29,652 nt of DNA from a virus. Shown in pieces: positions 4,236-21,143 of the stretch (position 1 is the first letter of the stretch; each line of letters begins with the position of its first letter). The position numbers were made by a program, and so were the translations under genes. The stretch covers positions 1 through 29,652 of the IMG/VR virus record IMGVR_UViG_3300020170_000026; one strand, written 5' to 3'. The notes beneath the pieces were generated by a model. The model was not told the DNA's origin. It worked only from the letters and a program-made list of their open reading frames with translations, and did no database searches.

Positions 4236-4243
4236 AAAATAAA

Positions 4244-4275
4244 TTTGGATAGTTCAAAAATATGTTTTACATTTG
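4244..4275 (+). promoter_or_regulatory. Bacteroidota-type promoter, rightward
   Basis: TTTG at 4244-4247, 20 nt spacing, TACATTTG at 4268-4275, matching the -33/-7 consensus (TTTG, TAnnTTTG). The start of transcription would be near 4282, ahead of the tRNA region. Confidence 0.6.
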
Positions 4276-4297
4276 AATTGAAATGAGGGATTAACTC

Positions 4298-4321
4298 TTA
4301 GTATGTTTTTTGGGATACTAA
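4298..4321. promoter_or_regulatory. Perfect 7-bp inverted repeat just after the promoter
   Basis: TTAGTAT and ATACTAA around a 10-nt centre, about 16 nt downstream of the predicted transcription start. May be an operator for a phage repressor or a small RNA hairpin. Confidence 0.35.
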
Positions 4322-4579
4322 ACAAACACAAATTTTAGCCTGTTGTTTTTACTCCGGGCTTACTTTGAAAGTTCATTGAAATTATTATAAATCATTCCGC
4401 GACAATAGCTGCTGAAGCATTAGCTAACGGTCGGCGAAGATAGCGGGAGTTATTTATGGTTCTGCCCTTCTCCGGTTAAGGAAGTAGATTAAAGAAAATA
4501 TACGCCATAATATTATTGCAGTTTATTAATTTGGGGTTAATATGTAAGAGTAGCCCTACATGTCAATGCGGGGCTTTAT
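4322..4579. other. Gene-free stretch before tRNA-Val
   Basis: No open frame of note and no repeat beyond short chance matches. A weak hairpin (AGCCC/GGGCT) lies at about 4552-4575 just before the tRNA. Presumably the 5' leader of the tRNA transcript. Confidence 0.4.
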
Positions 4580-4651
4580 AGGGAATTAGTTCATTGGTAG
4601 AACGGCTGTTTTACATGCAGCATGCAATCTGTTCGATTCAGATATTGCCTA
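4580..4651 (+). tRNA. tRNA-Val (anticodon UAC)
   Basis: Folds as a cloverleaf: acceptor AGGGAAT/ATTGCCT with a G-G mismatch in the fourth pair, D stem GTTC/GAAC with loop ATTGGTA, anticodon stem GCTGT/GCAGC with loop TTTACAT (anticodon TAC, U33 present), 5-nt variable loop, T stem ATCTG/CAGAT with loop TTCGATT, discriminator A. CCA is not encoded. The UAC anticodon would read GTA and related Val codons, which an AT-rich phage uses often. Confidence 0.8.
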
Positions 4652-4666
4652 CAGTTTATTATAAAA

Positions 4667-4851
4667 GAATAGATGATGGAATTGGTAGACATTAAAAGGT
4701 ATATTTTTTAGCTTAAGTAAGGGTAACAGAGAAATCTGGGGAAAATGGTGGCAAACATACTTTAGCACCAAATCGACTAATATACTATTGCCAGGCAACA
4801 TATGGTAACGCGCATATAATGCCTTTTTAGGTTCGAATCCTAAACTATTCA
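4667..4851 (+). ncRNA. tRNA-Leu-like RNA with a central insert of about 110 nt
   Basis: The 5' part (acceptor GAATAGA, then D arm ATG/CAT around GGAATTGGTAGA, as in bacterial tRNA-Leu) and the 3' part (T stem TTAGG/CCTAA with loop TTCGAAT, acceptor ACTATTC, A) pair as one tRNA, with one A-A mismatch at the bottom of the acceptor. Between them lie about 135 nt instead of the usual 45-50. AAAAGG (4694-4699) can pair with CCTTTT (4822-4827), so the insert sits on a helix where the anticodon arm should be. Inside are hairpins: CAGA-GAAA-TCTG (4727-4738), GGTG/CACC (4747-4769), ATATG/CATAT (4800-4817). No clear Leu anticodon loop. Could be an intron-bearing or tmRNA-like molecule, or a decayed tRNA. 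Confidence 0.5.
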
Positions 4852-5060
4852 CACTTATTGTAAAGGATTGTTTCTTGTTGTAAACTTGTGAATTTTTCTA
4901 ACTGTGCATACCGGATATCTCTATATCTTGTTAAAATTTAAAATATGATCGAATTTATTATGGCTTTATTCAAGGAACATGGCAAAGGACATGGTTAAAT
5001 TTATTAAAATTACTCTAGTTGGCATAGGGTTTTCCATAGGATATAGTTACCAAATAAGAG
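4852..5060 (+). other. Spacer with two tiny overlapping ORFs
   Basis: ATG 4945 opens a 17-codon frame (MIEFIMALFKEHGKG); a second frame starts at ATG 4979 or 4991 (MVKFIKITLVGIGFSIGYSY), overlaps the first stop, and would run to 5119 through the terminator. The second has a hydrophobic stretch. Reading through a terminator makes it doubtful as a gene. Confidence 0.2.
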
Positions 5061-5095
5061 TCCCGGGTTGTTTAGCCTGGGATTTTTTATTTTTA
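5061..5095 (+). terminator. Rho-independent terminator
   Basis: Stem TCCCGGG (5061-5067) with CCTGGGA (5076-5082; one G-T pair), 8-nt loop, then TTTTTTATTTTT. Ends the rightward tRNA transcript. Confidence 0.75.
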
Positions 5096-5189
5096 GTTTA
5101 TTCAGAAAATATTTGGTAATATCGATTTTACTTTGCAACTTTACAACGCGACACTACGTAAAAGATATTGGCAGCAATGCTGAGAAAAC

Positions 5190-5236
5190 AAACCGCCCGT
5201 AGAGTCGCATCATACTTAGGCGGTTTTTTCTTTTTA
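5190..5236 (+). terminator. Terminator-like hairpin
   Basis: Eight-bp stem AAACCGCC (5190-5197) with GGCGGTTT (5219-5226), 21-nt loop, followed by TTTTCTTTTT. A second stop signal for the tRNA transcript or the end of an unseen small RNA. Confidence 0.55.
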
Positions 5237-5269
5237 TATAACATATGCTACAATACACACAATCATCAT

Positions 5270-5489
5270 TTACAAGCTCAAATTCGCCACCAAATACGGT
5301 TGGTGTGCCTTTCACCAGGGCGGCTTTAATGTGCGCGCAACGAACCGATAAACGGGGTTGGCAATCATTCATTCGCTTTAAATGACAGGACGGACGCAAC
5401 ACTTTCCTCTGTCAGCCATACGAACGAGGGTCCTAACTTCGACGCAATTCGGGTAGATAGCGAAGGTGTTTTCTTCTTTTTCCCTTAGG
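5270..5489 (+). pseudogene. Broken coding-like segment of higher GC
   Basis: Two + strand frames look coding one after the other. The first gives KFATKYGWCAFHQGGFNVRA before a stop at 5333-5335; the frame one base back then runs NGVGNHSFALNDRTDATLSS, SHTNEGPNFDAIRVDSEGV and stops at TAG 5487-5489. A single-base deletion near 5332 would join them. GC is visibly higher than in the neighbours. No start codon or promoter. Likely the relic of a receptor-binding or lectin-like domain, or a non-coding template; not identified. Confidence 0.35.
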
Positions 5490-5525
5490 GTAGGGTAGTT
5501 TTTTACTTCTTAAACACCTTCGCTA
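5458..5525. repeat. Perfect 14-bp inverted repeat
   Basis: TAGCGAAGGTGTTT at 5458-5471 and its exact reverse complement at 5512-5525, separated by 40 nt rich in T with CCCTTAGGGTAGGGTAG. The left arm overlaps the end of the broken coding-like segment. No T-run follows either arm. Could fold as a large hairpin ahead of the RNase H gene. Confidence 0.75.
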
Positions 5526-5583
5526 CCTTCCGCCTCCAAAGCCTTCATCTCTGCAATCAGTATCACATTAATTTAATATAAAT

Positions 5584-6063
5584 ATGATAAAGAAAACGAT
5601 TAAAATCTATACAGACGGAGCAGCATTACCGACAAACCCAGGCCGGGGCGGTTGGTCATTTATAATCTTAGAAAACGGTCAAGAAATCGATAGAGACAGC
5701 GGAGGATTTAGATTTACCACTAATAATAGAATGGAGATATTAGCCATTTTAAATTCATTATATGCTTTAAATGAAGGATATAAAGATCATAAAATAATTA
5801 TATTCTGTGATAGCACATATGTTGTAAATGGATGTAATATCTGGTCGCAAAATTGGATAAAAACTGGTGCCAGGAAAAGTAATATGGATTTATGGAAGCA
5901 AATAGTTGAATTAAAAAAAGAATATGATATTGAATTAAGATGGGTAAGGGGGCACAACGGGAATCATTATAACGAATTATGTGATGAACTGGCAAATAAA
6001 GCGGCCAATACGCCATATAATATTGCTGATATTATCTATGAAAAAGTAAAATATAATATTTAA
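5584..6063 (+). CDS. rnhA: Ribonuclease HI
   Basis: 159 aa, near the usual length of bacterial RNase HI. It cleaves the RNA strand of RNA:DNA hybrids, for example primers or R-loops. Catalytic residues visible: D11 (YTDGAA), E51 (NNRMEI), D76 (CDST), H124 (VRGHNGN) and D134 (ELCDELAN), so the enzyme should be active. The WVRGHNGN loop and the NNRMEI motif are typical. It lies just upstream of the packaging genes, apart from any replication gene in the window. Start ATG 5584 follows an AT-rich leader; no promoter of the TAnnTTTG type is visible close by. Confidence 0.92.
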   Translation: MIKKTIKIYTDGAALPTNPGRGGWSFIILENGQEIDRDSGGFRFTTNNRMEILAILNSLYALNEGYKDHKIIIFCDSTYVVNGCNIWSQNWIKTGARKSNMDLWKQIVELKKEYDIELRWVRGHNGNHYNELCDELANKAANTPYNIADIIYEKVKYNI

Positions 6064-6067
6064 CAAA

Positions 6068-6301
6068 ATGACTCAAAAACCCTACAAAGGCGACATATAC
6101 CGGCCTCAATTGCCTACTTCTTGGGAAGACGGAATAGAGTACCCAAACCAGGTCATGATTCAAATTTGGGCCTTAAATGAGCAGGAAATGATATTGTTGG
6201 CAGAAAGCATGGAATATACTTATTCCTTTTTCACAATCACACAATATAGCTCTACCTGGGAGCCAGGATACAAAATTACTTCACCTGATATTTGTAATTA
6301 A
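6068..6301 (+). CDS. Hypothetical protein
   Basis: 77 aa, 4 nt after the RNase H stop, so probably co-transcribed. Aromatic- and acid-rich (SWEDGIEYPNQVMIQIWALN), no signal peptide or membrane helix, no family recognised. Ends before the promoter of the packaging operon. Confidence 0.55.
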   Translation: MTQKPYKGDIYRPQLPTSWEDGIEYPNQVMIQIWALNEQEMILLAESMEYTYSFFTITQYSSTWEPGYKITSPDICN

Positions 6302-6323
6302 AATCATATATTGAGTTGAATAA

Positions 6324-6355
6324 TTTGGTTCGATAATTAATTTTTCATATATTTG
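6324..6355 (+). promoter_or_regulatory. Bacteroidota-type promoter of the packaging operon
   Basis: TTTG at 6324-6327, exactly 20 nt, TATATTTG at 6348-6355. Same spacing as the promoter at 4244-4275. Predicted start near 6362, about 14 nt before the terminase small subunit. Confidence 0.65.
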
Positions 6356-6375
6356 AGTTAACTAAAATTATAGTT

Positions 6376-6888
6376 TTGGCAGCGGCAAAAGGAAATAAAT
6401 ATGCTGTAGGAGCTGATAGCGGAGTTAAAAAAGCTATTGAAACACCTGAAAAAATGTGGGAACTATTTCAGGCTTATGTTAAAAAAACAAAAGCTGATCC
6501 ATTTCTTGTGCATGATTTTGTGGGAAAAGATGGAAAATCAGTATATCGTGAAAAAGAAAGGCCATTATCTTATGAAGGATTTTGTTGTTATTTATGGGAT
6601 GAAAATATTATACTTAGACCGGATCATTACTTCATAAATTGGGAGGGTCGTTACGAAGAATTCGTAGGTATCTGCGCTCATATTAAGCAAGTTATAAGAA
6701 ATAATCAGATTCAAGGTGGCCTCGTTGGAATCTTCAATCCATCGATTACACAGCGGTTAAATGGGCTAGTTGAAAAGGTAGAAAGTGACAATAAACATAC
6801 GGTGAAAGGTGTGAATCTTATTTTTAATCCAGCAGAAGGATGTAAGCCATTGGGAGAAAAAGAGGCTGATGGATCAAAAGATAGTTAA
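6376..6888 (+). CDS. terS: Terminase small subunit (gp3-like)
   Basis: 170 aa, start TTG 6376; the N-terminus AAAKGNKYA is typical of the DNA-packaging protein gp3-like family. It should bind the packaging-start site and recruit the large subunit. Contains the expected SYEGFCCYLWDENIILRPDH region and an FNPSITQRLNGL segment near the C-terminus. Overlaps the large subunit gene by 20 nt, which supports the role. The usual DNA-binding helices are not obvious by eye; assignment rests on N-terminus, size and position. Confidence 0.8.
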   Translation: MAAAKGNKYAVGADSGVKKAIETPEKMWELFQAYVKKTKADPFLVHDFVGKDGKSVYREKERPLSYEGFCCYLWDENIILRPDHYFINWEGRYEEFVGICAHIKQVIRNNQIQGGLVGIFNPSITQRLNGLVEKVESDNKHTVKGVNLIFNPAEGCKPLGEKEADGSKDS

Positions 6889-8053
6889 TTGCACGCCAGT
6901 ATTCTATGCAAACCGGGATGCAATTTTGTCTGGCAAGCATAGGGTAATAGCTAATCAGGGAAGTACTAGAAGTAGTAAAACTTATAGTATATGTCAATTG
7001 CTTCCTACTATAGCGCTCGATCCCGGCGCTTACTTTCCAGGGATGAAGGATATAAGCATAACCATATGCAGCCCATCATTACCACATCTAAAACGTGGTG
7101 CACGTAGGGACTTCCTGGAAATAATGAACGATTGGGAATTATATGACGACAATGATTTCAATAAGACGGATCAAATATATAAATTCGGAAATAGTTTCAT
7201 AGAGTTCTTTGGGGCAGAGGATAATGGGAAAGTCAGAGGCCCGGGCAGAGATATATTATATGTTAATGAGGCGAATCTTATTAATTATGATGTATACAAG
7301 CAAATGGCACTCCGGACAAAAAAAATGATCCTTATTGATTTTAACCCAGCTGATGAATATTCATGGGTATATGATATAGCCGATAAGCCAGGAAATCTGC
7401 TAATACATAGCACATATAAAAATAACCTGGGAAATCTTACGCCGGAGATTATCCAAGAAATAGAGGACTTAGAATTAGGGGATGAAAACCTTTGGCGTGT
7501 ATTCGGATTAGGTTTAAGGGGCACCAGTAGCGAAACAATTTATACGCATTGGAAAATTGTAGATAACTTTCCACCCTGTGACAATGTATGTTTTGGACTG
7601 GATTTTGGTTTCAATCACCCGAATGCCATGATAAAAGTTGGATTATATGAGGGTGCGGTCTATGCTGAAGAGGTTTTATATGAACGGGGATTGACCAATA
7701 ATGATCTGGCATATCTCATTAAAACCTCTGTAGGCATAAATAAGAGGACTTCAGTATATTGTGATACTGCCAGACCGGAATCCATTGAAGAAATAAATAG
7801 AGCCGGAGTGAATGCAAAGCCGGCTGATAAAGCGGTTTGGGAGGGCATAAAGTGCGTTAAACAACGTCCTTTATATGTTACCAGGAATAGTACGAACCTT
7901 ATCAAAGAATTGAAATCTTATAAATGGAAGAAGGATAAAGATGGGAAAGTGTTAGAAGAACCGGTTAAATTTTATGATGACGCCTGTGATGCATTGAGAT
8001 ATGGCATTTATACCGGATTAAATAAACCTAAATTACAAGCATTCGCAATTTGA
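6869..8053 (+). CDS. terL: Terminase large subunit
   Basis: 394 aa, typical of PBSX/Terminase_3-like packaging motors. N-terminal ATPase: deviant Walker A GSTRSSKT (31-38) and Walker B ILYVNE (129-134, catalytic E134). C-terminal RNase H-fold nuclease: D245 (GLDFGFNHP), D299 (YCDTARPE) and D371/D374 (FYDDACDALRYG), all present. It translocates DNA into the prohead and cuts the concatemer. Start ATG 6869 inside the end of terS. No truncation or insertion seen. Confidence 0.95.
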   Translation: MDQKIVNCTPVFYANRDAILSGKHRVIANQGSTRSSKTYSICQLLPTIALDPGAYFPGMKDISITICSPSLPHLKRGARRDFLEIMNDWELYDDNDFNKTDQIYKFGNSFIEFFGAEDNGKVRGPGRDILYVNEANLINYDVYKQMALRTKKMILIDFNPADEYSWVYDIADKPGNLLIHSTYKNNLGNLTPEIIQEIEDLELGDENLWRVFGLGLRGTSSETIYTHWKIVDNFPPCDNVCFGLDFGFNHPNAMIKVGLYEGAVYAEEVLYERGLTNNDLAYLIKTSVGINKRTSVYCDTARPESIEEINRAGVNAKPADKAVWEGIKCVKQRPLYVTRNSTNLIKELKSYKWKKDKDGKVLEEPVKFYDDACDALRYGIYTGLNKPKLQAFAI

Positions 8054-8058
8054 GATAG

Positions 8059-9534
8059 ATGGCAAACATATTACAAAAGTTGTTCGCAAATAAGAAGGCA
8101 GTCAGCATTATACAATCGGCTCCTCCCGGCCAAATACAGCAGCTCTATCAGGCTGCTATTCGCTTTTTAGGGGGTCAGTTGGTACCTTACAATGTTGCAG
8201 ATAGATCGGTATATATTGATCGGGGATATACATATAATGATATAGTATATAGTGTGGTGAAAATTATCCTAGATAAAGCAGCCGTTGCAGAATGGGCACC
8301 TTATCAGGTAGTAGATAAGAAGGCTTATGCTAAGAGCCGGGCCATCTTCAAAAATATGTCTACCGGCATTGGTGGGAACTATGAAGAAGCTAAATTTTAC
8401 CAGGAAAAGGGCCTACAGCCTTATGAAAGCGACGAAGGACTGAACCGATTATTGAAATATCCCAATGAAAATGAAACATTTAACGAGCTTAATTTTGGCC
8501 TTTGGTGTTATAAATTATTGACGGGTGATTACTTTGAGGGAGGATGGGAAGATACAGCGTCCGGCGGTCTTAATCCTGGTGCGCCTCTGCAATTATTTGG
8601 TCTGCCGTCGCAATATATGCGGATTAAGACAGCCACCGCAACATTACCGCTAATCGCAGAATCTTATGAATTATATTTTGGATATGTCATTCCATTTACC
8701 CGGGCAAATATCCTTCATGAGAAGTACTTTAACCCAGAATGGGATAGTTATGGTATTCAGCTATATGGCCTTTCACCTCTGAAAGCATATCTGAAGCGCC
8801 TGCAACGCAATAATCTGGCTCAGACTCGCGGTGCAAAGGCTATGCAAAATGGGGGAGCGGATAATATAGTCTACTTGGATGACGATAAGATCATGCAGGA
8901 TTTTGATCTATCAAAAGAGCAGATGGAAACCATGAAACGCACTTGGGATGCGGAGCAGGGTGGTGTGAATAATGCTGGTAAGGCAGTTTGGAGCCCTTAT
9001 AAAGTGGGATCAACTCGGCTGACCTTATCACCCGTTGAACTAGATTTATTGGCCTCAGAGAAGTTTGATTTGGAAATGGCATGCCATTTATATGGGGTTC
9101 CTTACGCACTTTTCAGCAATGACGCCAGCACATATAACAATTTAACTGTAAGTGAAAGGGCGCTAACTACCCGATGCGCTTTACCTTTATTACTCGCCCG
9201 GGAATCATCTTTTAATCGAAAGTTACAAACGCTTCCAAAATATAAGTCTGGTAATATTATTATAGCACCTGATCTTACTTGTTACTCGGAGTTGGAGATA
9301 AACAAGAAGGAACAAGTTGATTGGGTGGAAAGATCATTATTGCCTATTTATAGGCGTTATGAGATAATGGGCGAAGAAAGGCCACCGGAAATGACTGATG
9401 AAGAATGGAATAGTATATTAGTGCCTTCCGGATTCAGTCTTTTGCAAGATTTATTCATGCAGCCGGGAAGCATTCAGAATGATGTGAATAACTTAGATGC
9501 CATTGGCGCAAATCCATACAGGCAAACAACATAA
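8059..9534 (+). CDS. Portal protein (HK97-type)
   Basis: 491 aa, 5 nt after terL. Forms the dodecameric channel at the head vertex. Recognisable features: the N-terminal YNDIVYSVVKIILDKAA segment, the central GAPLQLFGLPSQYMRI strand, and the C-terminal HLYGVPYALFSNDASTYNNL motif followed by a long helix, as in Bacteroidota phage portals. Length is normal for the family. Starts at ATG 8059. The following gene is separated by a structured 90-nt gap. Confidence 0.9.
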   Translation: MANILQKLFANKKAVSIIQSAPPGQIQQLYQAAIRFLGGQLVPYNVADRSVYIDRGYTYNDIVYSVVKIILDKAAVAEWAPYQVVDKKAYAKSRAIFKNMSTGIGGNYEEAKFYQEKGLQPYESDEGLNRLLKYPNENETFNELNFGLWCYKLLTGDYFEGGWEDTASGGLNPGAPLQLFGLPSQYMRIKTATATLPLIAESYELYFGYVIPFTRANILHEKYFNPEWDSYGIQLYGLSPLKAYLKRLQRNNLAQTRGAKAMQNGGADNIVYLDDDKIMQDFDLSKEQMETMKRTWDAEQGGVNNAGKAVWSPYKVGSTRLTLSPVELDLLASEKFDLEMACHLYGVPYALFSNDASTYNNLTVSERALTTRCALPLLLARESSFNRKLQTLPKYKSGNIIIAPDLTCYSELEINKKEQVDWVERSLLPIYRRYEIMGEERPPEMTDEEWNSILVPSGFSLLQDLFMQPGSIQNDVNNLDAIGANPYRQTT

Positions 9535-9543
9535 CTTTATATA

Positions 9544-9611
9544 GCCACCACAAAAAGTAATTATCGGTAATAGCAAGTAGCTTCGCGTGGTGGCGGGCGA
9601 AAGCTATTACC
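9544..9611 (+). promoter_or_regulatory. Predicted RNA pseudoknot in the leader of the glycosylation genes
   Basis: Two perfect, interleaved inverted repeats: GCCACCAC (9544-9551) with GTGGTGGC (9587-9594), and GGTAATAGC (9566-9574) with GCTATTACC (9603-9611). A third helix, TAGCTTCGC (9578-9586) with GCGAAAGCTA (9597-9606, one bulged A), encloses the 3' arm of the first and competes with the second. So either a hairpin-loop pseudoknot or an alternative long-range fold forms, ending 16 nt before the next ATG. No T-run, so not a plain terminator. Confidence 0.6.
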
Positions 9612-9627
9612 ATTTTAATTTAAACAC

Positions 9628-10899
9628 ATGGAAATAAACGATCTTGACCGGTTCCCTGGTAACAATATTCATTATACGGCAATCATTGGCCCGAATGTGG
9701 CAATGGGAACTGGTAATTATATCGGACCTTATTGTATCATAGGATATCCAGGTGAGCATAAGGCACTTTGGGGAACAGACAAAGGAGTCTTTATCGGCAA
9801 TGATAATATTATAACCGGCGCCGTGACCATTGATTCCGGCATTCAGCGAACCACTACAATCAACAGCGGATGTTTCATAATGAAGCGGGCGCATATTGGC
9901 CATGATGCCATACTGCATAATGATGTGATAGTTTCCTGCAATGCAGTAATAGGAGGTCATGTAACGGTATATGAAGGGGTTAATATTGGACTTAATGTAT
10001 GTATCCATCAATATCAGAATATAGGCAGATATTCTATGCTCGGAATGGGGACAATAGTTATAAAATCATCTATTATTGATGAATTTGGTACTTATGCTGG
10101 AGTACCAGCAAGATATTTACATCAGAATGAAAAAGGCATAGATTTATATTGTGGAACTCAAAGAGAAGAGGTAGCTATTCTTATGTTGTCTTATGAGCGC
10201 TTCGAAGTGATGGAACGGGTTATCAAACATAATCTTGCCAATGCCGGATGCAATGTTGATCTTTTTGTATGGGATAATGGAAGCAAAGATAAAAGAGTTA
10301 CTGATCTGCTTTCTCAATATAAATATGAAATGATCTGCTCGCCGGATGGTGAAAACTGGGGTATAGCAAAGCCTTTCAATATTCTTATGCAACATGCTTA
10401 TAAACTGGGATATAAGTACTTTCAGTTTATGGCAAACGATATATTGGAGCCTGAAGGCTGGATTAAACGAAAGATCGACTATATTAAAACAATACCGAAT
10501 AGTGGTATGGTATCTATTTCACCACATACTACAATACCTTATATAGAGCAGTTCGATAGAGGCATTTCACATCATCCTGGTGACGTTATAGGGCAGTTTA
10601 TGTTCACCCGGGAAGTATATGAGAAGGTTGGTTCATTCTATGAGGGATTCGGCAAATATGGACCTATAGACAATGATTATAATAACCGTTGCACCAAAGC
10701 TGGATTCATTAATTATTATATCCCTGATGCCAGTTCACAGCATATAGATGATAATGCAGTTCCGAATTTGTATGGCTATGATAAAACGACTGAATTGCAA
10801 AAATCCTGGCTGATACATCAAGAGCGATCTAAACTTCCTGATTATTATATAGCGCCTAATGAGGAATATATTATTAACATGGATCAATATTTCAAATGA
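9628..10899 (+). CDS. LpxA-like acyltransferase fused to GT-A glycosyltransferase
   Basis: 423 aa, two domains. Residues 1 to about 165 form a left-handed beta-helix with hexapeptide repeats (IIGPNVAMGTGNYIGPYCII, GGHVTVYEGVNIGLNV) and an LpxA-type AHIGHD segment with the likely catalytic His, ending FGTYAGVPARYL, as in sugar N- or O-acyltransferases. Residues 180 to about 400 form a GT2-like domain (VAILMLSYERFEVMERVI, LFVWDNGSKD, FMANDILEPEGW, FYEGFGKYGPIDNDYNNR). Probably acylates and transfers a sugar. Overlaps the next gene by ATGA. Phages carry glycosyltransferases, but I do not recall this fusion in a head operon. Confidence 0.85.
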   Translation: MEINDLDRFPGNNIHYTAIIGPNVAMGTGNYIGPYCIIGYPGEHKALWGTDKGVFIGNDNIITGAVTIDSGIQRTTTINSGCFIMKRAHIGHDAILHNDVIVSCNAVIGGHVTVYEGVNIGLNVCIHQYQNIGRYSMLGMGTIVIKSSIIDEFGTYAGVPARYLHQNEKGIDLYCGTQREEVAILMLSYERFEVMERVIKHNLANAGCNVDLFVWDNGSKDKRVTDLLSQYKYEMICSPDGENWGIAKPFNILMQHAYKLGYKYFQFMANDILEPEGWIKRKIDYIKTIPNSGMVSISPHTTIPYIEQFDRGISHHPGDVIGQFMFTREVYEKVGSFYEGFGKYGPIDNDYNNRCTKAGFINYYIPDASSQHIDDNAVPNLYGYDKTTELQKSWLIHQERSKLPDYYIAPNEEYIINMDQYFK

Positions 10900-11810
10900 A
10901 AATAAGTTATTATTATAGGCCCGGTGCCAGCTGTGATTATCATAGGATTGAACTTCCCATGAAATATATACAACCGATCTCTGCTGATCTTAATCAAGCT
11001 GATTTTAGCCTATTTTGTCGTGCACCCAGCATGCCTATTATGGATAAATATATTATTGACATTGATGATTATTGGTATTTATATCCACATCATTACATTT
11101 TCAATAGCTGGAATGCGCATAATACGCCCGTTATTTGGATAAAATATATGAAAGGGGCTGAACTAATAACGACTACTACTTCATTGCTCGCCGAAAAAAT
11201 AGCCAGGATCAATAAGAATGTAGAAATCATTCCCAATGCGTTGCCATTCGGTGAAGATCAATTCCGAATAAGTAAATCACAATCAGACATTTGTCGTTTC
11301 TTTTATGCCGGGGGGCCTTCACACTTACATGATCTTGCCATCATAGGGCCCATTATAAGGCAATTGGGCATTGATTTCACTATCCAGGGATATAACCCAT
11401 CAGTAGCGGATTGGAATCGAATAAAGGATGCATTCGGGCATAAAACTAAATTTATAATTAATCAGCCCATTGAATCTTATCTAAATACATATAATGCTGA
11501 TGTAATGCTTATTCCATTGGAAAATAATGTATTCAATCAGCATAAGTCCAATCTCAAGATATTGGAGGCAGCAGCAACCGGCATGGCTGTGATTGCTTCC
11601 AGGATACAGCCTTATTATAATGAGGTTGACGAGCCTTATGTTCTCTATGCTTCTACGCCAGATGAATGGAAGTCACATATAAATTATTGCAGTCATAATC
11701 CTAATTTTGTCAAGGATCAGGCGGCAGCGCTGGGAGAACATTGCAAAGAACAATATGATCTGAATAAGATTAACAAATATCGTGAACAAGTTTATTATAG
11801 TATATTATGA
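10896..11810 (+). CDS. GT-B glycosyltransferase (GT4-like)
   Basis: 304 aa. N-terminal Rossmann half begins MKISYYYRPGASCDYHRIEL and includes DIDDYWY; the C-terminal half has FFYAGGPSHLHD, then LENNVFNQHKSNLKILEAAA followed by TGMAVIAS, the usual nucleotide-sugar-binding motif (K/E, G, PVIAS) of family-4 glycosyltransferases. Length is a little short (usual 340-400). Overlaps both neighbours by 4 nt, so it is translated with the fused enzyme before it and the GT-A enzyme after it. Acceptor unknown; virion or host surface glycan are both possible. Confidence 0.8.
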   Translation: MKISYYYRPGASCDYHRIELPMKYIQPISADLNQADFSLFCRAPSMPIMDKYIIDIDDYWYLYPHHYIFNSWNAHNTPVIWIKYMKGAELITTTTSLLAEKIARINKNVEIIPNALPFGEDQFRISKSQSDICRFFYAGGPSHLHDLAIIGPIIRQLGIDFTIQGYNPSVADWNRIKDAFGHKTKFIINQPIESYLNTYNADVMLIPLENNVFNQHKSNLKILEAAATGMAVIASRIQPYYNEVDEPYVLYASTPDEWKSHINYCSHNPNFVKDQAAALGEHCKEQYDLNKINKYREQVYYSIL

Positions 11811-12346
11811 TCTATTACCGCACATTTTGGGATACTGGAAAAAATTTTGGCAAAGCGATCAACCGGGAAATGGAATTGATTCCGAATAGTGAGGATTGGG
11901 TATGCCTGCGCGACGGGGATACCTTATTTCTGACTGATTATTGGGGTAAACAGATTGAAGATATTATATTTCATAATGGCAATCATTTTGATATTATAGG
12001 GGGAATGCTTAGTCGCTGTAATGTGCCTGATCAATTGCTCGATTCAAAGATTAGTGAAAATTATAATTTAGTCTTTCATAGGGAAGTTGCCTTAATGCGG
12101 GAACAATTATATTATGATCAAATTAAGCCCACAAATGGACCTATTGCCGCTGCCTGTATGTTATTCCAAAAGAAGACATGGGAGGCTATAAAATTCCAGG
12201 AATATAGCGTACATTTTGATAGCTTATTTTGTGGGAATGTCAGGGCTGCTGGTGGTAGACTTGGAATAGCACAAGGACTTTACCTTGCACATTGCTATAG
12301 AATGAGTGTAAGGGATCCAGGATCACATTATAAACATTTGATATGA
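11807..12346 (+). CDS. Small GT-A-type glycosyltransferase
   Basis: 179 aa. Has an aspartate motif LRDGDTLF (D36, D38) that fits the metal/nucleotide-sugar site of GT-A enzymes, followed by DIIGGMLSRCN and GPIAAACMLFQKKTWEAI, like GT2 proteins. The N-terminal half of the nucleotide-binding fold is very short, so the protein may be minimal or work with its neighbours. ATGA overlaps on both sides. Confidence 0.7.
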   Translation: MIYYRTFWDTGKNFGKAINREMELIPNSEDWVCLRDGDTLFLTDYWGKQIEDIIFHNGNHFDIIGGMLSRCNVPDQLLDSKISENYNLVFHREVALMREQLYYDQIKPTNGPIAAACMLFQKKTWEAIKFQEYSVHFDSLFCGNVRAAGGRLGIAQGLYLAHCYRMSVRDPGSHYKHLI

Positions 12347-12624
12347 TTGACATTTCATTACTTGAAGAAATCGTGACTAAGGCAATCCCTTTTGAGCAGG
12401 CCGATTGCAAACGCATTAAAGCAAAAAAGGAATGGCGCCGGGAACAACTGAAGGAACAAATATTGGCATGGCATAAGAAATGTAATCATGAAACTAATAA
12501 AGGATCAATCATGGATTTAATAAATTTAGTATGGGTTTATGGGAATAATGAACAAATTGGATTTCATAATAAATCGGACGCAGAAAGATATATATTTGAA
12601 AATCCAGAATGCTATATAAAATGA
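12343..12624 (+). CDS. Hypothetical charged protein
   Basis: 93 aa. N-terminal helical part rich in Lys/Glu/Arg (KRIKAKKEWRREQLKEQI), C-terminal part with WVYGNNEQIGFHNKSDAE. Coupled by ATGA overlaps to the glycosyltransferase before and the MuF-like gene after. No family recognised. Confidence 0.55.
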   Translation: MIDISLLEEIVTKAIPFEQADCKRIKAKKEWRREQLKEQILAWHKKCNHETNKGSIMDLINLVWVYGNNEQIGFHNKSDAERYIFENPECYIK

Positions 12625-13445
12625 ACCGCCAACAGCAGAATGCCCGCTTTCGCCAATTACAGCGCCAACAGGCGAAGTACGAAAAGATATGGCAACCACG
12701 TATAAAAGAGGCGCTCGATGCCTCATTTAAGCCTATATTGGCCTTTATAAAGGATAATACAATAGAGGCTACAATGGCTCTGGCACCAAGTCTGCTTAAT
12801 GCTGACCAACTGAAAAAAGTATTGAATAATCTCTGGATCAGGACCGGCATTGCGCAGGCAAATGATGAATATGGATTCCTGATAAAGACCTATCCTGAAA
12901 TATTGCAATCTAAAGCATTCGGATTCAATCAGTTGTGGAGAAATATTATTCAGGCATTCCTGGATCAATTTGGTGCAAGAAAAATCGCGCAAATGGCATC
13001 AACGGATCAGCAGATCATTAACCGACTGCTTCAGCAGGCATTGGATGCCGGATATGACACGATTGAGGCAGCTAAACTGATCGAAAGTTCTCTGGTTAAT
13101 ACTTATCGTTCCAGGCTCATTGCCCGCACTGAACTATTGGGCGCATCCTCAATGGGCGCATCTCTGGGAGCTAAAAAGACAGGTTTAGCAATGAATAAGA
13201 CATGGCTTTCAGTGCGCAGGAATACTACCAGAAGATTACCGGGAGATCAATTTGATCATTGGAATATGGATGGTGTGTCCGTAGGGATAGATGAACTATT
13301 TTTGGTAGCTGGAAAAACCGGCGCTGAATTTATGGCTTATCCTGGCGATCAGGAACGCGGATCAGCAGGGGATATTTGCAATTGTTTGTGCAAAGTAATT
13401 CATGAAGCAACAAGGGATGTATCTGGAAGATTAATCAGGATTTAG
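12621..13445 (+). CDS. MuF-like head morphogenesis protein
   Basis: 274 aa from ATG 12621, whose start overlaps the stop of the upstream gene (ATGA); an earlier ATG at 12609 is less likely. N-terminal basic coiled region (NRQQQNARFRQLQRQQ). The C-terminal half has the Mu gpF/SPP1 gp7 pattern: TYRSRLIARTELLGASSMGA, RRLPGDQFDHWNMDG, AYPGDQERGSAGDICNCLC. Minor head protein linked to portal and packaging. It is the last gene before the accessory island. Confidence 0.85.
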   Translation: MNRQQQNARFRQLQRQQAKYEKIWQPRIKEALDASFKPILAFIKDNTIEATMALAPSLLNADQLKKVLNNLWIRTGIAQANDEYGFLIKTYPEILQSKAFGFNQLWRNIIQAFLDQFGARKIAQMASTDQQIINRLLQQALDAGYDTIEAAKLIESSLVNTYRSRLIARTELLGASSMGASLGAKKTGLAMNKTWLSVRRNTTRRLPGDQFDHWNMDGVSVGIDELFLVAGKTGAEFMAYPGDQERGSAGDICNCLCKVIHEATRDVSGRLIRI

Positions 13446-13594: not shown

Positions 13595-14290
13595 TCATAC
13601 AGGTGTTGCATGTTCAAATATTTTTTCTTGTAATATCCAACCTTTATTACGAATAGTTTTTATTTCTAAAGAAGTGCCATTTAGATATTGTCTCATTCTG
13701 TTAAAATAAACATCTATCACACGTTTTGCAAAAAAGAAATCTTTACTATATCGATCATTGATCGCATAAAGATATTCTGTAAGTTGCTTGTAATAAACGA
13801 TTGTATCTTTTCGCTGAAAAAGGAAACACAATAATTGATAAGGGCGTTCAGGGAGTTTTATCTCCGTGCCATCTGCTTTTATGATTTTGAGGTAGGATAA
13901 TACCACATTGCCCGCTTTATATGAAATCGCTTTATGTTTAACTGAAAAACTATATCTATGAATGAATACCATAATCCTTAAATAGAGTTCTTCTTCATTC
14001 ATGGGCAATGTGCCGCAAAAATCTATGCCGGCTCCGTATAGGTCTAAAATAGCCTTTTCTGTATACCCATTCGATAATGAAATGATTGGCGTATCATTAT
14101 TGATTCTGAATTTCCTTATAATCTCTGTTGTTGGATCGGAGAATTTTGCAGAATGAAAAATTATGATGTTTGCTATATCGGCATTATCTGTCACATTCAT
14201 TTCCTTTTCCGAAAAAAAATGTGTCAAATGTCGCTTATAATATTCATCCTGTGTCTTTATGCAGATCGAATAAATTAGAGGGGTTTTCAT
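13595..14290 (-). CDS. OmpR-type regulator with degenerate receiver domain
   Basis: 231 aa. Residues 125-228 form a winged helix of the Trans_reg_C type (KLPERPYQLLCFLF, RVIDVYFNRMRQYL, IKTIRNKGWIL). Residues 1-115 resemble a receiver domain (PIISLSNGYTEKAILDLYGA), but the phospho-acceptor position after the third strand reads NIIIFHSA (His/Ser, no Asp), the N-terminal acidic pair is absent, and the conserved Lys is Leu (GTLP). So it probably binds DNA without phosphorylation. It sits in the accessory island, coupled to the DUF551 gene. Likely controls host or phage genes; target unknown. Confidence 0.8.
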   Translation of the reverse strand: MKTPLIYSICIKTQDEYYKRHLTHFFSEKEMNVTDNADIANIIIFHSAKFSDPTTEIIRKFRINNDTPIISLSNGYTEKAILDLYGAGIDFCGTLPMNEEELYLRIMVFIHRYSFSVKHKAISYKAGNVVLSYLKIIKADGTEIKLPERPYQLLCFLFQRKDTIVYYKQLTEYLYAINDRYSKDFFFAKRVIDVYFNRMRQYLNGTSLEIKTIRNKGWILQEKIFEHATPV

Positions 14291-14613
14291 TTTTCATCAG
14301 TTTTAAATGGTTCTGGGATGGGCATCCAATGCGTAGGGACGCTTATTTGTCCTTCTAGGCATAAAAATTCTATTTCTTCATTGCTATCATAGCCATTAAA
14401 TGAAGAAATGTAAACTGATTCTCCTTCATTGCATAAAACATATTTTCCTATTTCTGGCAATTGTTCTTTCACGCTTATCCATTCTTGTTGTTCTAATGCC
14501 CATCTTGCGCCACTACGAAAATCAAAACTTGAATTTAATTTGTTTAAATCATCGATACTTAAAACATTGGCATATATTTCAGATGCATTCCATATTTGTC
14601 CTTCAGTTATCAT
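14287..14613 (-). CDS. DUF551-family protein
   Basis: 108 aa. The C-terminal two thirds match DUF551: WISVKEQLPEIGKYVLC near the start, and THWMPIPEPFK at the end. DUF551 proteins are common in phages and prophages and have no known function. The N-terminal 40 residues (SEIYANVLSIDDLNKL) are extra. Stop overlaps the regulator start (ATGA). Confidence 0.75.
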   Translation of the reverse strand: MITEGQIWNASEIYANVLSIDDLNKLNSSFDFRSGARWALEQQEWISVKEQLPEIGKYVLCNEGESVYISSFNGYDSNEEIEFLCLEGQISVPTHWMPIPEPFKTDEK

Positions 14614-14624
14614 GTCTGTTCGTT

Positions 14625-15008
14625 TTAATTATTTTGTTGTATATGAGAAGATGTATCTCCACGCTGCTCCTCAATATCCATATTCTTTTTTGCTAACTGG
14701 ATTAATTCATCAAATGTCATGAATAATTGACCGCTTATATCATGCATAACGGAGATCATGTTAATGGTATCAGTAAGTACTTGTTTATGTTTTTTCTTAT
14801 CCCCTTTAAAATCTTCATTTAATTTAGCCCGTAATCTTATTGCGCCTTTTTCATTATCAATTTTTGCACATGAATAGGAGGTTGCTATATGGAAAAAGAA
14901 TTCCCCGTGCCCGGGCTGATGTAATATTACACTACCCGCAACATCGTTATCTATCAGAAGCTTTTTAATCGCTTCCATTACTTTTTTTAATTTAGGATTG
15001 TATTGCAT
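14625..15008 (-). CDS. Hypothetical phage protein
   Basis: 127 aa. The segment LIDNDVAGSVILHQPGHGEF and SYSCAKIDNEKGAIRLRAK resemble a small Bacteroidota phage family of unknown role. C-terminal part helical and acidic. Overlaps the upstream gene stop by 1 nt and precedes the DUF551 gene by 11 nt. Confidence 0.6.
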   Translation of the reverse strand: MQYNPKLKKVMEAIKKLLIDNDVAGSVILHQPGHGEFFFHIATSYSCAKIDNEKGAIRLRAKLNEDFKGDKKKHKQVLTDTINMISVMHDISGQLFMTFDELIQLAKKNMDIEEQRGDTSSHIQQNN

Positions 15009-15283
15009 TATTTCTGTTCGTTTTTAACTTGTTCAATGGCTTGTAGGATGATTTCTTTATTATAACTGTCTTTAAGATATATATAAATAGCATTCCCAAT
15101 ATCCTCAAAATCTTCAATAAATCCATAGAAAGCTATAATTGGAGCGCAATAAGCCCTCACTTCCCGATAGCACATGAGTGCGGTAAGTTGTTCGGTGGCT
15201 ATTGAAGGGATAATTTGTTCAATAGGGCTAAAAGAAAAAAGACCTCTACTTTTATATAATATTTTATATATTTTATCCTTCAT
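15008..15283 (-). CDS. Hypothetical protein
   Basis: 91 aa, helical (EQLTALMCYREVRAYCAPII), acidic C-terminal half (GFIEDFEDIGNAIYIYLKD). No membrane segment is convincing. Its start overlaps the end of the gene before it by 11 nt. Family unknown. Confidence 0.5.
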   Translation of the reverse strand: MKDKIYKILYKSRGLFSFSPIEQIIPSIATEQLTALMCYREVRAYCAPIIAFYGFIEDFEDIGNAIYIYLKDSYNKEIILQAIEQVKNEQK

Positions 15284-15506
15284 TGTTTATGTATTTTTCG
15301 GTGAGTTGATAATCTGTTTCATAAGCTTTATTATAAAATATATTCGATACTGCCTTTATTATGCCTTTTGTTATTAATGAATAGAATGTGTGAGTATTAA
15401 TCTTCTGAAGAATACCTCTTTTATCCCTCATAAAACAGCCACCATGAATTGTCCATCCTTCTTTCATCTTATCCACGACATCCTGTTGTGATTTTGATAG
15501 CTTCAT
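15273..15506 (-). CDS. Hypothetical phage protein
   Basis: 77 aa from ATG 15506 (MKLSKSQQDVVDKMKEGW), a start pattern often seen in small phage proteins; the frame is open to a GTG at 15545 but that would overlap the neighbour further. Contains TIHGGCFMRDKRGILQKI and a helical C-terminus. Function unknown. Confidence 0.55.
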   Translation of the reverse strand: MKLSKSQQDVVDKMKEGWTIHGGCFMRDKRGILQKINTHTFYSLITKGIIKAVSNIFYNKAYETDYQLTEKYINNEG

Positions 15507-15663
15507 TTCTTTTGGGTTTAAGTATAAAAGCTGTTTTCTTACCACGTACTTTACTTATTGAAAATCCATTGCTAAACCTTAGTATATAAATAGTACCTGT
15601 ATTTCTCACTAACCATAAATTAAAGATATATTGGTGATGCCGATCCCTCCAGGTATTCGTCAT
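15469..15663 (-). CDS. Hypothetical basic protein
   Basis: 64 aa from ATG 15663, which overlaps the stop of the upstream gene (ATGA). Basic (pattern KVRGKKTAFILKPKRNEA) with predicted beta strands (GTIYILRFSNG). Overlaps the next gene by 38 nt in another frame, unusual but supported by the stop/start overlap. Function unknown. Confidence 0.45.
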   Translation of the reverse strand: MTNTWRDRHHQYIFNLWLVRNTGTIYILRFSNGFSISKVRGKKTAFILKPKRNEAIKITTGCRG

Positions 15664-16010
15664 AATTGCCAATTTTCAGGTTCAGGTTCAGGTTCTGGAT
15701 TATCTGGATTATGTCCTTTCCCGGACATTCTGTCGCCGGGTTGTACAACGACTATTTCCGGATCACTGTCGGGTATTAAGCCTTCCTGTTCTAAATATCT
15801 ATCAACAACGGCCCCATCGCTTTCTACTTCATATAGTACCTTTTGTACGGCATCTGCTATATATTTAACTGTTATATGTGCATAATGCTTTGTGGCTTCT
15901 ATTTCAGCTTGTCCATTTGGAGATTGCTTTATATCATTCCAGTATTGGGGTATGTATCGGCACCTGACCATCTCTTCAGCAAGTATCCGTACACGTTCAT
16001 TGTAGTTCAT
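15660..16010 (-). CDS. Hypothetical protein with Pro-Glu tail
   Basis: 116 aa. N-terminal helical part (NYNERVRILAEEMVRCRYIP), middle helices, then VVVQPGDRMSGKGHNPDNP and a PEPEPEPE tail encoded by a short repeat of GGTTCA/GGTTCT triplets. The tail is probably an unstructured spacer. Family not recognised. Confidence 0.5.
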   Translation of the reverse strand: MNYNERVRILAEEMVRCRYIPQYWNDIKQSPNGQAEIEATKHYAHITVKYIADAVQKVLYEVESDGAVVDRYLEQEGLIPDSDPEIVVVQPGDRMSGKGHNPDNPEPEPEPENWQL

Positions 16011-16011
16011 A

Positions 16012-16179
16012 TTATCTATTTTTATAAAAGTAAGATTCTGGCACTATATTGATATCCATCTTAATATAATATCTATTTTCATTCATCCAAATTTCATGTT
16101 TTTTGTTTTCGCATTTATAATAAAGACTGGATAAAACATGCAATACTATATCTCCCTTTTTAATGTTCAATTGTTTCAT
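16012..16179 (-). CDS. Small hypothetical protein
   Basis: 55 aa from ATG 16179, overlapping the upstream stop (ATGA), stop TAA 16012-16014. Sequence begins MKQLNIKKGDIVLHVLSS and continues with a Cys and several Tyr (ENRYYIKMDINIVPESYF). The KKGDIV start suggests a small beta-barrel. Function unknown. Confidence 0.5.
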   Translation of the reverse strand: MKQLNIKKGDIVLHVLSSLYYKCENKKHEIWMNENRYYIKMDINIVPESYFYKNR

Positions 16180-16445
16180 AATTCAAATTTTAGATTTTCT
16201 AATTTATTCAGTTGTGTTTTGAAAAATTCAATTTTGAGTAATCTCATTTGTTCTGCTCTTTCGATAGCTTTTTCTTTGGTTATATGCCAATCTGGTTTAT
16301 AATATCTTTTCTTATAAAAATGATTAGATATTAAACATACAATATCTTCAATTTGACCATCCATTTTTTGAATGCCCTTGCTTAATGCATATTGGGTAAT
16401 ATAAACTTCCATAATTTTATCATTTATATTAAAAATTCCCTTCAT
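16176..16445 (-). CDS. Hypothetical helical protein
   Basis: 89 aa. C-terminal half forms an amphipathic helix (KAIERAEQMRLLKIEFFKTQ). Middle part has FYKKRYYKPDWHITKE. Coupled by overlaps on both sides in the leftward operon. Family not recognised. Confidence 0.5.
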   Translation of the reverse strand: MKGIFNINDKIMEVYITQYALSKGIQKMDGQIEDIVCLISNHFYKKRYYKPDWHITKEKAIERAEQMRLLKIEFFKTQLNKLENLKFEL

Positions 16446-16755
16446 TATTTTCGTCTAAAGTAAAAACTGCCATCGGCGGAAGTGCATTTGAAAGTGTCTT
16501 AATATAAATTGGTTCACCTCTATTGATAGCTTCAATGTCTTCTTTATTTGGTTGCCATGCTGTCATATAATAAGGATAACTTTCTGAATCAATTCCGGCA
16601 TACAATCCACGGGGTAATTGGGCTATACCATTAGATTTGAATATTTTATAAAGTAATCCAAATCCATGCTTAGCCCAAATACTTGTACATTGTTCATCCG
16701 TCATGTCATCAGGTTTTTTAATTTCTTTAGCCCCTTCAAAGTTTATTGGATGCAT
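16429..16755 (-). CDS. Hypothetical phage protein, first gene of leftward island operon
   Basis: 108 aa from ATG 16755 (MHPINFEGAKEIKKPDDMTD); a GTG start at 16773 would lie inside the -7 promoter element and is rejected. Contains MTDEQCTSIWAKHG and a WQPNKEDIEAINRGEPIYI segment ending in PPMAVFTLDE, a layout shared by small Bacteroidota phage proteins of unknown role. Confidence 0.6.
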   Translation of the reverse strand: MHPINFEGAKEIKKPDDMTDEQCTSIWAKHGFGLLYKIFKSNGIAQLPRGLYAGIDSESYPYYMTAWQPNKEDIEAINRGEPIYIKTLSNALPPMAVFTLDENNEGNF

Positions 16756-16772
16756 AATTCTTATTGTTTCCA

Positions 16773-16805
16773 CAAATGTAGATAATTAATTTTTAATTAT
16801 CCAAA
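16773..16805 (-). promoter_or_regulatory. Bacteroidota-type promoter, leftward
   Basis: On the minus strand TTTG (16805-16802), 21 nt, TACATTTG (16780-16773). Predicted start near 16766, about 10 nt before ATG 16755. Confidence 0.55.
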
Positions 16806-19188: not shown

Positions 19189-19914
19189 ATGGAGCTTTTC
19201 AAGAAAAAAACAAATATTTCTAAAGAATTTAGTGTTAAGGACATCGACACAAGCGGTCGTGTCCTTTCTATTTACTGGTCCTCATTTGATAATAAAGATA
19301 GGGATGGGGATGTTATTGTAAAAGGAGCATTTTCTAAAACTATTCGTGAACAAGGACCGCAGGGCTTGGGTGAACAATGGTTTATTAAATTCCATAACCC
19401 AGATATGCCGTTGGCAACTCCATTTGAGCTAACGGAAGATAATTACGGCCTCTTGGCCCGTATAAAAATGCCCAATACCGATCCTGCTAATGAAACCTTA
19501 ACCCTTTATCAGGATGGGCATTATAAACATCAATCTATTGGTTTCCAGACAATAAGACAACAAAAAAGAGATAATTACAACGAAATATCTGAAATAAAAT
19601 TATATGAAGGCTCTGTAGTATTATGGGCCGCGAATCCATCTGCAAAATTTGTAGATATTAAGTCTATTATATCTCCCAAAGAAATTAGTGAAGAACTTGA
19701 ATTAACTATTAAGGGATTACGTAATGGAAAATATAAAGATGAAACATTTGCGCTCTTAGAAATTAAGATGCGCCAACTTATACAGGCTGCTGCTGATATA
19801 GCAAGTAACACTCCTGCCGCTGATCAAGCACCGGAGCCGTCAACGGATGTCAAGCAAGATGATGCCATAATTGAAACAAAATTGGACAACATCTTAAAAT
19901 TATTCATCAAATGA
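19189..19914 (+). CDS. Prohead maturation protease (HK97 S78-like)
   Basis: 241 aa. Core signature: SSFDNKDRDGDVIVKGAFSK, then KFHNPDMPLA with catalytic His69, HYKHQSIGF with catalytic Ser116, and LYEGSVVLWAANP with E140 probably completing the triad. C-terminal 60 residues are Ala/Glu-rich and may act as scaffold. It cleaves the N-terminal arm of the capsid protein that follows. Overlaps the capsid gene by ATGA. First gene after the island. Confidence 0.9.
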   Translation: MELFKKKTNISKEFSVKDIDTSGRVLSIYWSSFDNKDRDGDVIVKGAFSKTIREQGPQGLGEQWFIKFHNPDMPLATPFELTEDNYGLLARIKMPNTDPANETLTLYQDGHYKHQSIGFQTIRQQKRDNYNEISEIKLYEGSVVLWAANPSAKFVDIKSIISPKEISEELELTIKGLRNGKYKDETFALLEIKMRQLIQAAADIASNTPAADQAPEPSTDVKQDDAIIETKLDNILKLFIK

Positions 19915-21143
19915 GTGAAATAAAATTAGATACTATCGAAAAAAGTATCAAAGAATATCAGGATGCCACGCAGGCGGGCCTGAAAGCAACCAAGGAAGAT
20001 TTTGAACTGCTGAAAAAAGCTACAGATGCCTGGGAGGCTAAATTTAAGGCACAGGAAGACTTGGCGGTAACTCTGGATGGAAAGATCAAAACTGTCAATG
20101 AATATGCTGAAAATCTGGAAAAACAATTGAAGGCCAAGCAATTAACGCCTGAACAACAGTTTCAGTTCATTGATCTGCTGGGTAAGGCTGTAGAGGAAAA
20201 TTGGGCAGAAATTGAAAAGTTCAAGAAAGCAAGCAAAGGCCGCGTTTTCCGCTTTGAAGTGAAGGCTCCGGCCGACATGGGCATTACCACCAATGTAACC
20301 GGCGCTGGTGCATATTTTACCACGGTACAGATTGGCATCCGTGCCCTGCCTAATCGTAAGGTACATATGCGGCAGATCATACCGCTTGGTACCATGTCTT
20401 CCAGCTCTGTTACTTATATGAGGGAAGTTCCCAGCGGTGAAGGCAATTTAACTCCGGTACTAGAAAATGGCACTAAACCGCAATTTGATATTGATTTCCA
20501 GGAAGTAACAGTACCGGCAGAATATATTGCCGGTTGGTTACGAGTTTCTCGTAAGATGTTAGATGATATGGCCGCATTCCGGTCATTTCTTCAAATGCGC
20601 CTTATGGAAATGTATCTGAAAGCAGAGGATAATCAGATTCTAAATGGAACTGGTGTTTCTCCCCAATTGCAAGGTTTACTCGTTGTTGCTGTTCCTGCGG
20701 TTGCAACTACCGGCCCGAATGTTGAACGTCTGGTTCATGCCATTGCTCAGCTGGAAACAACCGATTATACTGCTACCGGTATCGTTCTTCACCCTGCCGC
20801 ATATTATGAAATCGCTCTTAATAAGGCTACAGGTTCCGGAGAATATGATCTGCCTAATCCGCTGATCGTGATCCAAAATGGTCAGTTATATGTTGCCGGT
20901 GTGCCGGTATACAAAACAACTGCTATTGGTCTTAGCACTTATTTGGTTGGTGATTTCGATATGGGTTGTCAGTTGTTTATCCGTGAACAGCCGATTGTCG
21001 AATTTTTCGATCAGGACGCGAACAATGTGACCACCAATAAGATTACCGTACGTATTGAAGGACGGGTTGCATTGGCTATTTACAGAGCCGCTGCATTCGT
21101 TCAGGGTACGTTCACAGGTATACCTGCATTCCCAACAACCTAA
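19911..21143 (+). CDS. Major capsid protein (HK97 fold)
   Basis: 410 aa. Residues 1 to about 110 form a charged coiled-coil delta domain (EDFELLKKATDAWEAKFKAQ) expected to be removed by the protease; the HK97 shell domain follows (GITTNVTGAGAYFTTVQIGI, REVPSGEGNLTPVLENG, VPAEYIAGWLRVSRKML, ALAIYRAAAFVQGTFTG). GC content is higher than in neighbours, as usual for a highly expressed gene. Cleavage is probably near residue 110-120. Confidence 0.93.
   Translation: MSEIKLDTIEKSIKEYQDATQAGLKATKEDFELLKKATDAWEAKFKAQEDLAVTLDGKIKTVNEYAENLEKQLKAKQLTPEQQFQFIDLLGKAVEENWAEIEKFKKASKGRVFRFEVKAPADMGITTNVTGAGAYFTTVQIGIRALPNRKVHMRQIIPLGTMSSSSVTYMREVPSGEGNLTPVLENGTKPQFDIDFQEVTVPAEYIAGWLRVSRKMLDDMAAFRSFLQMRLMEMYLKAEDNQILNGTGVSPQLQGLLVVAVPAVATTGPNVERLVHAIAQLETTDYTATGIVLHPAAYYEIALNKATGSGEYDLPNPLIVIQNGQLYVAGVPVYKTTAIGLSTYLVGDFDMGCQLFIREQPIVEFFDQDANNVTTNKITVRIEGRVALAIYRAAAFVQGTFTGIPAFPTT

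Follow-up and report, generated by a model that had tools for sequence, protein, structure and literature searches.

Why does a phage carry sugar enzymes among its head genes, and how did one of them come to join an LpxA-like left-handed beta-helix (LbH) to a glycosyltransferase (GT)? The question is raised by a 29,652-base viral contig, an incomplete genome (the whole stretch analyzed, here called the window), in which three such genes lie between those for the portal and a MuF-like protein. We propose that they form a virion-glycosylation cassette within the head module, which would carry out an acetyl-type sugar modification and then transfer the sugar to a virion protein; we give this reading a probability of about one half.

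Layout of the locus

The features of the window that bear on the question are:

8059–9534, + strand: portal protein (PF04860, 6.8e-26), upstream flank of the sugar block
9535–9627, + strand: non-coding leader, with interleaved inverted repeats at 9545–9611
9628–10899, + strand: LbH acyl/acetyltransferase-like domain fused to a GT-A domain, 423 aa (Pfam, NCBIfam and PDB matches)
10896–11810, + strand: GT-B glycosyltransferase, 304 aa (PF13524, phrog_7162)
11807–12346, + strand: predicted minimal GT-A enzyme with a DGD motif (DGD enzyme), 179 aa (phrog_14179, AlphaFold2, Foldseek)
12343–12624, + strand: small ORF with no assigned function, 93 aa, ATGA-coupled
12609–13445, + strand: MuF-like head morphogenesis protein (PF04233, 2.3e-4; phrog_2468, 1.7e-29), downstream flank
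19189–19914, + strand: prohead protease (PF04586, 3e-17)
19911–21143, + strand: HK97-type major capsid protein (PF05065, 5e-32), candidate glycan acceptor
23176–23613, + strand: major tail protein (phrog_1407, 1.7e-15), second candidate acceptor

The terminase gene lies upstream of the portal gene, and the protease, HK97-type capsid, adaptor, neck and tail genes follow downstream of MuF. ATGA overlaps of 4 nt each couple the four ORFs from the fusion to the small ORF, and these overlaps, together with the PF04860 and PF04233/phrog_2468 matches on either side, bear out a preliminary description of this DNA that had placed three ATGA-coupled sugar genes (9628–12346) between portal and MuF. Pfam and PHROG searches returned no family for the small ORF, which has a counterpart (57% over 37 aa) at 8567–8965 of L006, one of the viral loci considered below. 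A minus-strand block (13595–16773) sits between MuF and the protease, and includes a 231-aa protein (13595–14290, − strand) with an OmpR-type DNA-binding C-terminus (PF00486, phrog_731).

The block as first described began at 9544 and takes in about 90 nt of the non-coding leader. Read directly from the sequence, CCACCAC/GTGGTGG is interleaved there with GGTAATAGC/GCTATTACC, and the repeats could form a candidate H-type pseudoknot. This is the sole 7+9 interleaved site in the window, 7+7 being reached by 163 of 20,000 shuffles; an Rfam search of the leader gave no family.

Domain identity of the sugar enzymes

Residues ~13–176 of the fusion match LpxA-type LbH proteins (PDB 8e62, E 7.6e-39; LpxA structures to 1.8e-14), and the left-handed beta-helix hexapeptide repeats score over the cut-off of PF00132. 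The AHxxHD, GGH and HQ motifs are kept across the phage LbH genes, with AHIGHD in the window and HxGHD in every phage LbH row of the alignment; we take the His of AHxxHD to be the catalytic His of LpxA. The NCBIfam LpxA equivalog scores of the window LbH (93.9 vs 226 bits and 91.6 vs 231) fall far under the cut-offs. The C-terminal helical domain with which LpxA binds acyl carrier protein is missing: the LbH stops at ~176 and the GT-A domain begins at 181, and free-standing LbH relatives are mostly about 159 aa long. Since the LbH lacks this domain and scores so far under the equivalog cut-off, acetyl is a more likely group to be transferred than an acyl chain. A lipid-type reading of the "acylated" sugar in the preliminary description is thus weakened. 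A literature search found no paper on PDB 8e62 and no relevant paper on phage LpxA-like cassettes.

Residues ~181–423 form a GT-A domain, in which PF00535 (GT2) matches residues 184–295 slightly below its cut-off (8.4e-5; 23.0 against 23.3 bits). The structure model of the fusion was made from an alignment of GT rows only; the LbH assignment therefore rests on sequence, and the LbH half of the model, of low confidence, is not interpretable. The GT-A half (pLDDT mostly 70–94 over most of its length) matched TarP, chondroitin polymerase (K4CP) and GalNAc-T at E ~1e-7 in Foldseek comparisons with the PDB, and also SpsA. The structure prediction that had been suggested as a check of 9628–10899 hence delivers a GT-A fold for the C-terminal half, the LbH half staying at low confidence, and the claimed fusion of an LpxA-like LbH to a GT-A domain stands on the PDB 8e62/LpxA matches for one half and on PF00535 and Foldseek for the other. 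At the DxD place the fused GT-A family has an invariant Asn-Asp (AND), the first Asp being absent and the second kept, which is a point against the virion-glycosylation reading.

The assignment of the second gene to the GT-B class is corroborated by PF13524 (8.5e-8; 32.7 bits against a cut-off of 25) and phrog_7162 (1e-66). The DGD enzyme has no Pfam match and falls in the glycosyltransferase family phrog_14179 (4.1e-41). Its AlphaFold2 structure, predicted with 22 homologues, has a pLDDT of 93.9, and all 18 of its PDB matches at E ≤ 0.001 (Foldseek) are glycosyltransferases or GT-bearing enzymes, among them WrtF, GalNAc-T2, hyaluronan synthase, LH3 and RmlT (TM ~0.5–0.58 by query). The model thus predicts a minimal GT-A fold, and both Asp residues of the DGD motif, D36 and D38, are invariant across the 22 homologues, in agreement with the earlier assignment.

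Origin of the fusion

IMG/VR searches with the fusion and with TerL as single sequences gave no matches, and profiles were needed. A profile of the window LbH and PDB 8e62 retrieved 320 viral stretches in uncultured viral contigs, of which the best 80 were kept. In 76 of these best 80 of 320 loci a separate LbH gene touches a homologous GT-A gene, the overlap being 1 nt in 65 and 4 nt in 9; a homologue of the GT-B gene at 10896–11810 is likewise present in 76. Because 72 of the best 80 fall in one cluster at ≥75% identity, they amount to about seven independent groups. The cassettes (L051–L130 and L157) are homologous to the window at about 44–56% in the LbH and about 25–46% in the GT-A. In the closest pair among the best 80, L051/L052 (55% and 44% to the respective fusion halves), the gene junction reads CTATGAGAG, as against the in-frame linker NEKGIDLYCGTQREE of the window. 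Gene order varies (LbH–GT-A–GT-B in L061, GT-B..LbH–GT-A in L051, GT-B–GT-A–LbH in L157), and despite this LbH and GT-A stay together in all three.

A search for the same fusion in other phages, which the preliminary description had called for next to MuF genes of Bacteroidota phages, came back empty: no fused LbH–GT-A occurs among the loci from the LbH scan (best 80 of 320) or from the GT-A scan, and the fusion is observed in one contig, the window. Among 50,697 phage records the LbH was matched by ordinary lpxA-like genes only, so that the family occurs in no isolated phage of that set. The human-gut record MT835680, considered as a second fusion, was ruled out, its LbH match being an ordinary 266-aa lpxA. 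The novelty suggested earlier for a fusion in a head operon accordingly holds for the fused state, and is tempered by the recurrence of the unfused pair and of head-module GTs. Since homologous separate LbH and GT-A genes adjoin in the relatives, the window fusion joins two adjacent genes into one frame. It provides direct "Rosetta stone" evidence for LbH and GT-A acting together, and gives an otherwise unannotated gene pair a testable activity.

An assembly or sequencing frameshift, with separate LbH and GT-A genes in the true genome, would fit the occurrence of the fusion in one contig when the best 80 of 320 LbH relatives are all unfused, and a one-base deletion would leave an LbH of 170 or 181 aa, near its usual end. 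However, the present frame of the GT-A half offers no ATG, GTG or TTG before residue 186; as that residue lies inside the first conserved beta-strand (VAILMLSY), a separate window GT-A gene would be left without a normal start, which argues for a real fusion. The linker NEKGID also resembles the end of PDB 8e62 (NDKGIE) and not out-of-frame sequence, and we consider a frameshift improbable. We hold it still less probable that the LbH is a non-catalytic trimerization scaffold for the GT-A domain. LbH proteins are trimers, and such a fusion would cluster the GT, but across the phage LbH family both the LpxA-type catalytic motif and the residues of the substrate site are conserved, and the relatives encode the LbH on its own, so that its function does not depend on fusion.

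Genomic position of the gene families

The DGD family was found at 41 loci in viral contigs. In varied HK97/MuF-type phages its members sit between the portal and capsid genes or right after the capsid gene (L006/L010, L011, L013, L015–18, L029–30, L034–35, L039–42, L044 and L046); in Stephanstirmvirinae-like phages they take non-head positions, with a GT-A–GT-B–GT-B set. DGD-family glycosyltransferases in the head modules of several unrelated phages are thus a recurrent pattern. Closest to the window phage is L006 (portal 54%, MuF 57%, DGD enzyme 64%, protease 65%), which keeps the order portal–GT–DGD–MuF, and in the slot of the fusion and GT-B has one 467-aa GT (phrog_1579; L006:6376–7779) that aligns along its length with mycobacteriophage cluster F GTs at 39–42% identity. 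The portal–MuF slot is variable in content. Elsewhere, phrog_1579 is found in hundreds of mycobacteriophages.

Other sugar genes were seen in these surroundings. At L009:6378–8549, just upstream of the terminase, a DGD-family enzyme adjoins a nucleotide-sugar epimerase (PF01370, 1.5e-53), which suggests that certain phages supply sugar-nucleotide synthesis as well. Behind the capsid gene of L004 (MW202801, ctQWt234; 4932–9595) lies a different putative sugar-modification block of the head module, made up of an annotated Fe-S oxidoreductase, two GTs, a PhyH dioxygenase, a methyltransferase and a NodB-like protein.

The LbH loci are tied to the packaging genes. In the 18 loci with sequence reaching the terminase, this gene lies downstream on the same strand, 0.6–3.6 kb off, and so it does in all 11 of the longer contigs checked (about 2.8–6.5 kb, from coordinates). 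The terminases of the window, L052 and L157 are mutually related (30–37% identity); those of the other representatives group separately and, at E 1e-3, do not match this first set, and the LbH gene set therefore crosses terminase lineages. That an acyltransferase–GT–GT set recurs in uncultured phages next to packaging genes, and in more than one such lineage, hints that sugar coats with chemical modifications could be widespread. In the LbH phages, the cassette stands before the terminase, at the replication/packaging boundary and not within the head genes, which counts against the virion-glycosylation reading and makes late expression an assumption there. Between cassette and terminase, L079 carries a putative fusion, judged by eye, of a ParB-like protein and a DNA methyltransferase (4242–5372).

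Proposed role

To our knowledge, virion glycosylation has been established experimentally in very few phages. In the mechanism that we propose, the LbH domain would place a small acyl group, most likely acetyl, on a sugar or nucleotide-sugar, the fused GT-A domain would transfer the modified sugar, and the GT-B and DGD enzymes would add linking or further sugars. The acceptor would be one of the abundant proteins of the virion, for example the major capsid or the tail protein. Joining the LbH and GT-A genes, which overlap by 1–4 nt in the relatives, would fix the two activities at 1:1. From gene position, and from the lack of support for DNA glycosylation, we infer the virion as target, and the acetyl donor and the sugar order are likewise conjectural. 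More tentatively, and with less confidence than in a virion-glycosylation cassette as such, the whole may be an undescribed cassette, abundant among uncultured phages and absent from about 50,000 annotated phage records, that makes an acetylated sugar and puts it onto virion proteins beside the packaging machinery, and whose two core enzymes form one bifunctional acetyltransferase-glycosyltransferase in the window.

Other targets were weighed against the virion. Pathways for surface polysaccharides typically include LpxA-like and O-acetylating enzymes, and the cassette could act on LPS or capsule in the infected cell, either to prevent superinfection or to alter receptor sugars. For gp41 of phage phi18:1, which has a DGD-family domain, LPS modification for superinfection exclusion is among the authors' suggestions (PMC11946311). 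Set against this, the genes of several lineages lie within late packaging/head modules or next to them, no GtrA-type flippase scored over the cut-off in 23 records (0/23), and an integrase is absent from the window and 21 of 22 others, most of these records being fragments; lysogenic conversion is accordingly not indicated. We regard modification of the host surface as rather unlikely, and favor the virion over it by position only. No glycan has so far been reported on any phage of the window group, which speaks against the virion. Phage GTs are DNA-directed in many cases, and those of the window might decorate hydroxymethylated bases of the phage genome against restriction. Where PMC12619734 cites Pyle et al. 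2024, phage GTs are indeed described as often DNA-directed. Nevertheless, thymidylate synthase/hydroxymethylase (PF00303) is absent in 23 of 24 records, including the incomplete window and the complete phi18:1, ctQWt234 and ESCO13, with control genomes positive; the sole match is interrupted by a stop. A Tet/JBP search, run without a positive control signal, gave no matches. Moreover, phi92-like phages (Vequintavirinae group), which have a putative machinery for dTDP glycosylation, are sensitive to restriction (PMC8594841), and DNA as the target is less probable than the host surface.

Comparison with known systems

Mycobacteriophage GTs glycosylate capsid and tail tube, according to the passages of PMC12363180 and PMC11256854 that cite Freeman et al. 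2023. These virion GTs (Che8 gp110, cluster F) put a glycan on capsid or tail, as we propose for the window; unlike those of the window, their genes lie at the right genome end, and no acyltransferase was seen there. Che8 gp108–110, of which gp110 is reported essential for capsid glycosylation, matched neither the window GTs nor the L006 GT; a direct homology link was rejected on this sequence comparison, and the likeness is an analogy, with no homology to a proven enzyme.

The four-GT cluster of E. coli Stephanstirmvirinae (ESCO13 gp230–gp233) shares with the window a pair of GT-B and small GT-A enzymes: the DGD enzyme has 36% identity to gp230, and the window GT-B 33% to gp232 and 28% to gp233; gp231 shows weak similarity to the fused GT-A. 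In contrast to the window, the cluster has no LbH domain, and it stands away from head genes, which counts against the virion reading. The LbH of the window has the fold and the AHxxHD active-site motif of LpxA and PDB 8e62, and differs from LpxA in lacking the C-terminal helical domain, in its score and in being joined to a GT (adjacent in relatives).

Among isolated phages, Cellulophaga phi18:1 provides a published structural-module case (PMC11946311): gp41 is a head-module glycosyltransferase between MuF and prohead protease, and shares 41% identity with the DGD enzyme over its C-terminal half. Unlike that enzyme, gp41 has in addition an N-terminal GT domain that is TOD1/MUCI70-like (as indicated by the match of its L008 homologue), and phi18:1 has neither LbH nor GT-B. 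The LbH, GT-A and GT-B cassettes of the uncultured phages (L051–L130, L157) resemble the window in their homologous enzymes, in the adjacency of LbH and GT-A and in lying close to packaging genes; they differ in that their genes are separate, overlap and lie upstream of the terminase, and the DGD enzyme was not found in the DNA fetched for them. On these comparisons, the window carries, in fused form, a gene pair that recurs in uncultured phages, set within a recurrent pattern of head-module glycosyltransferases.
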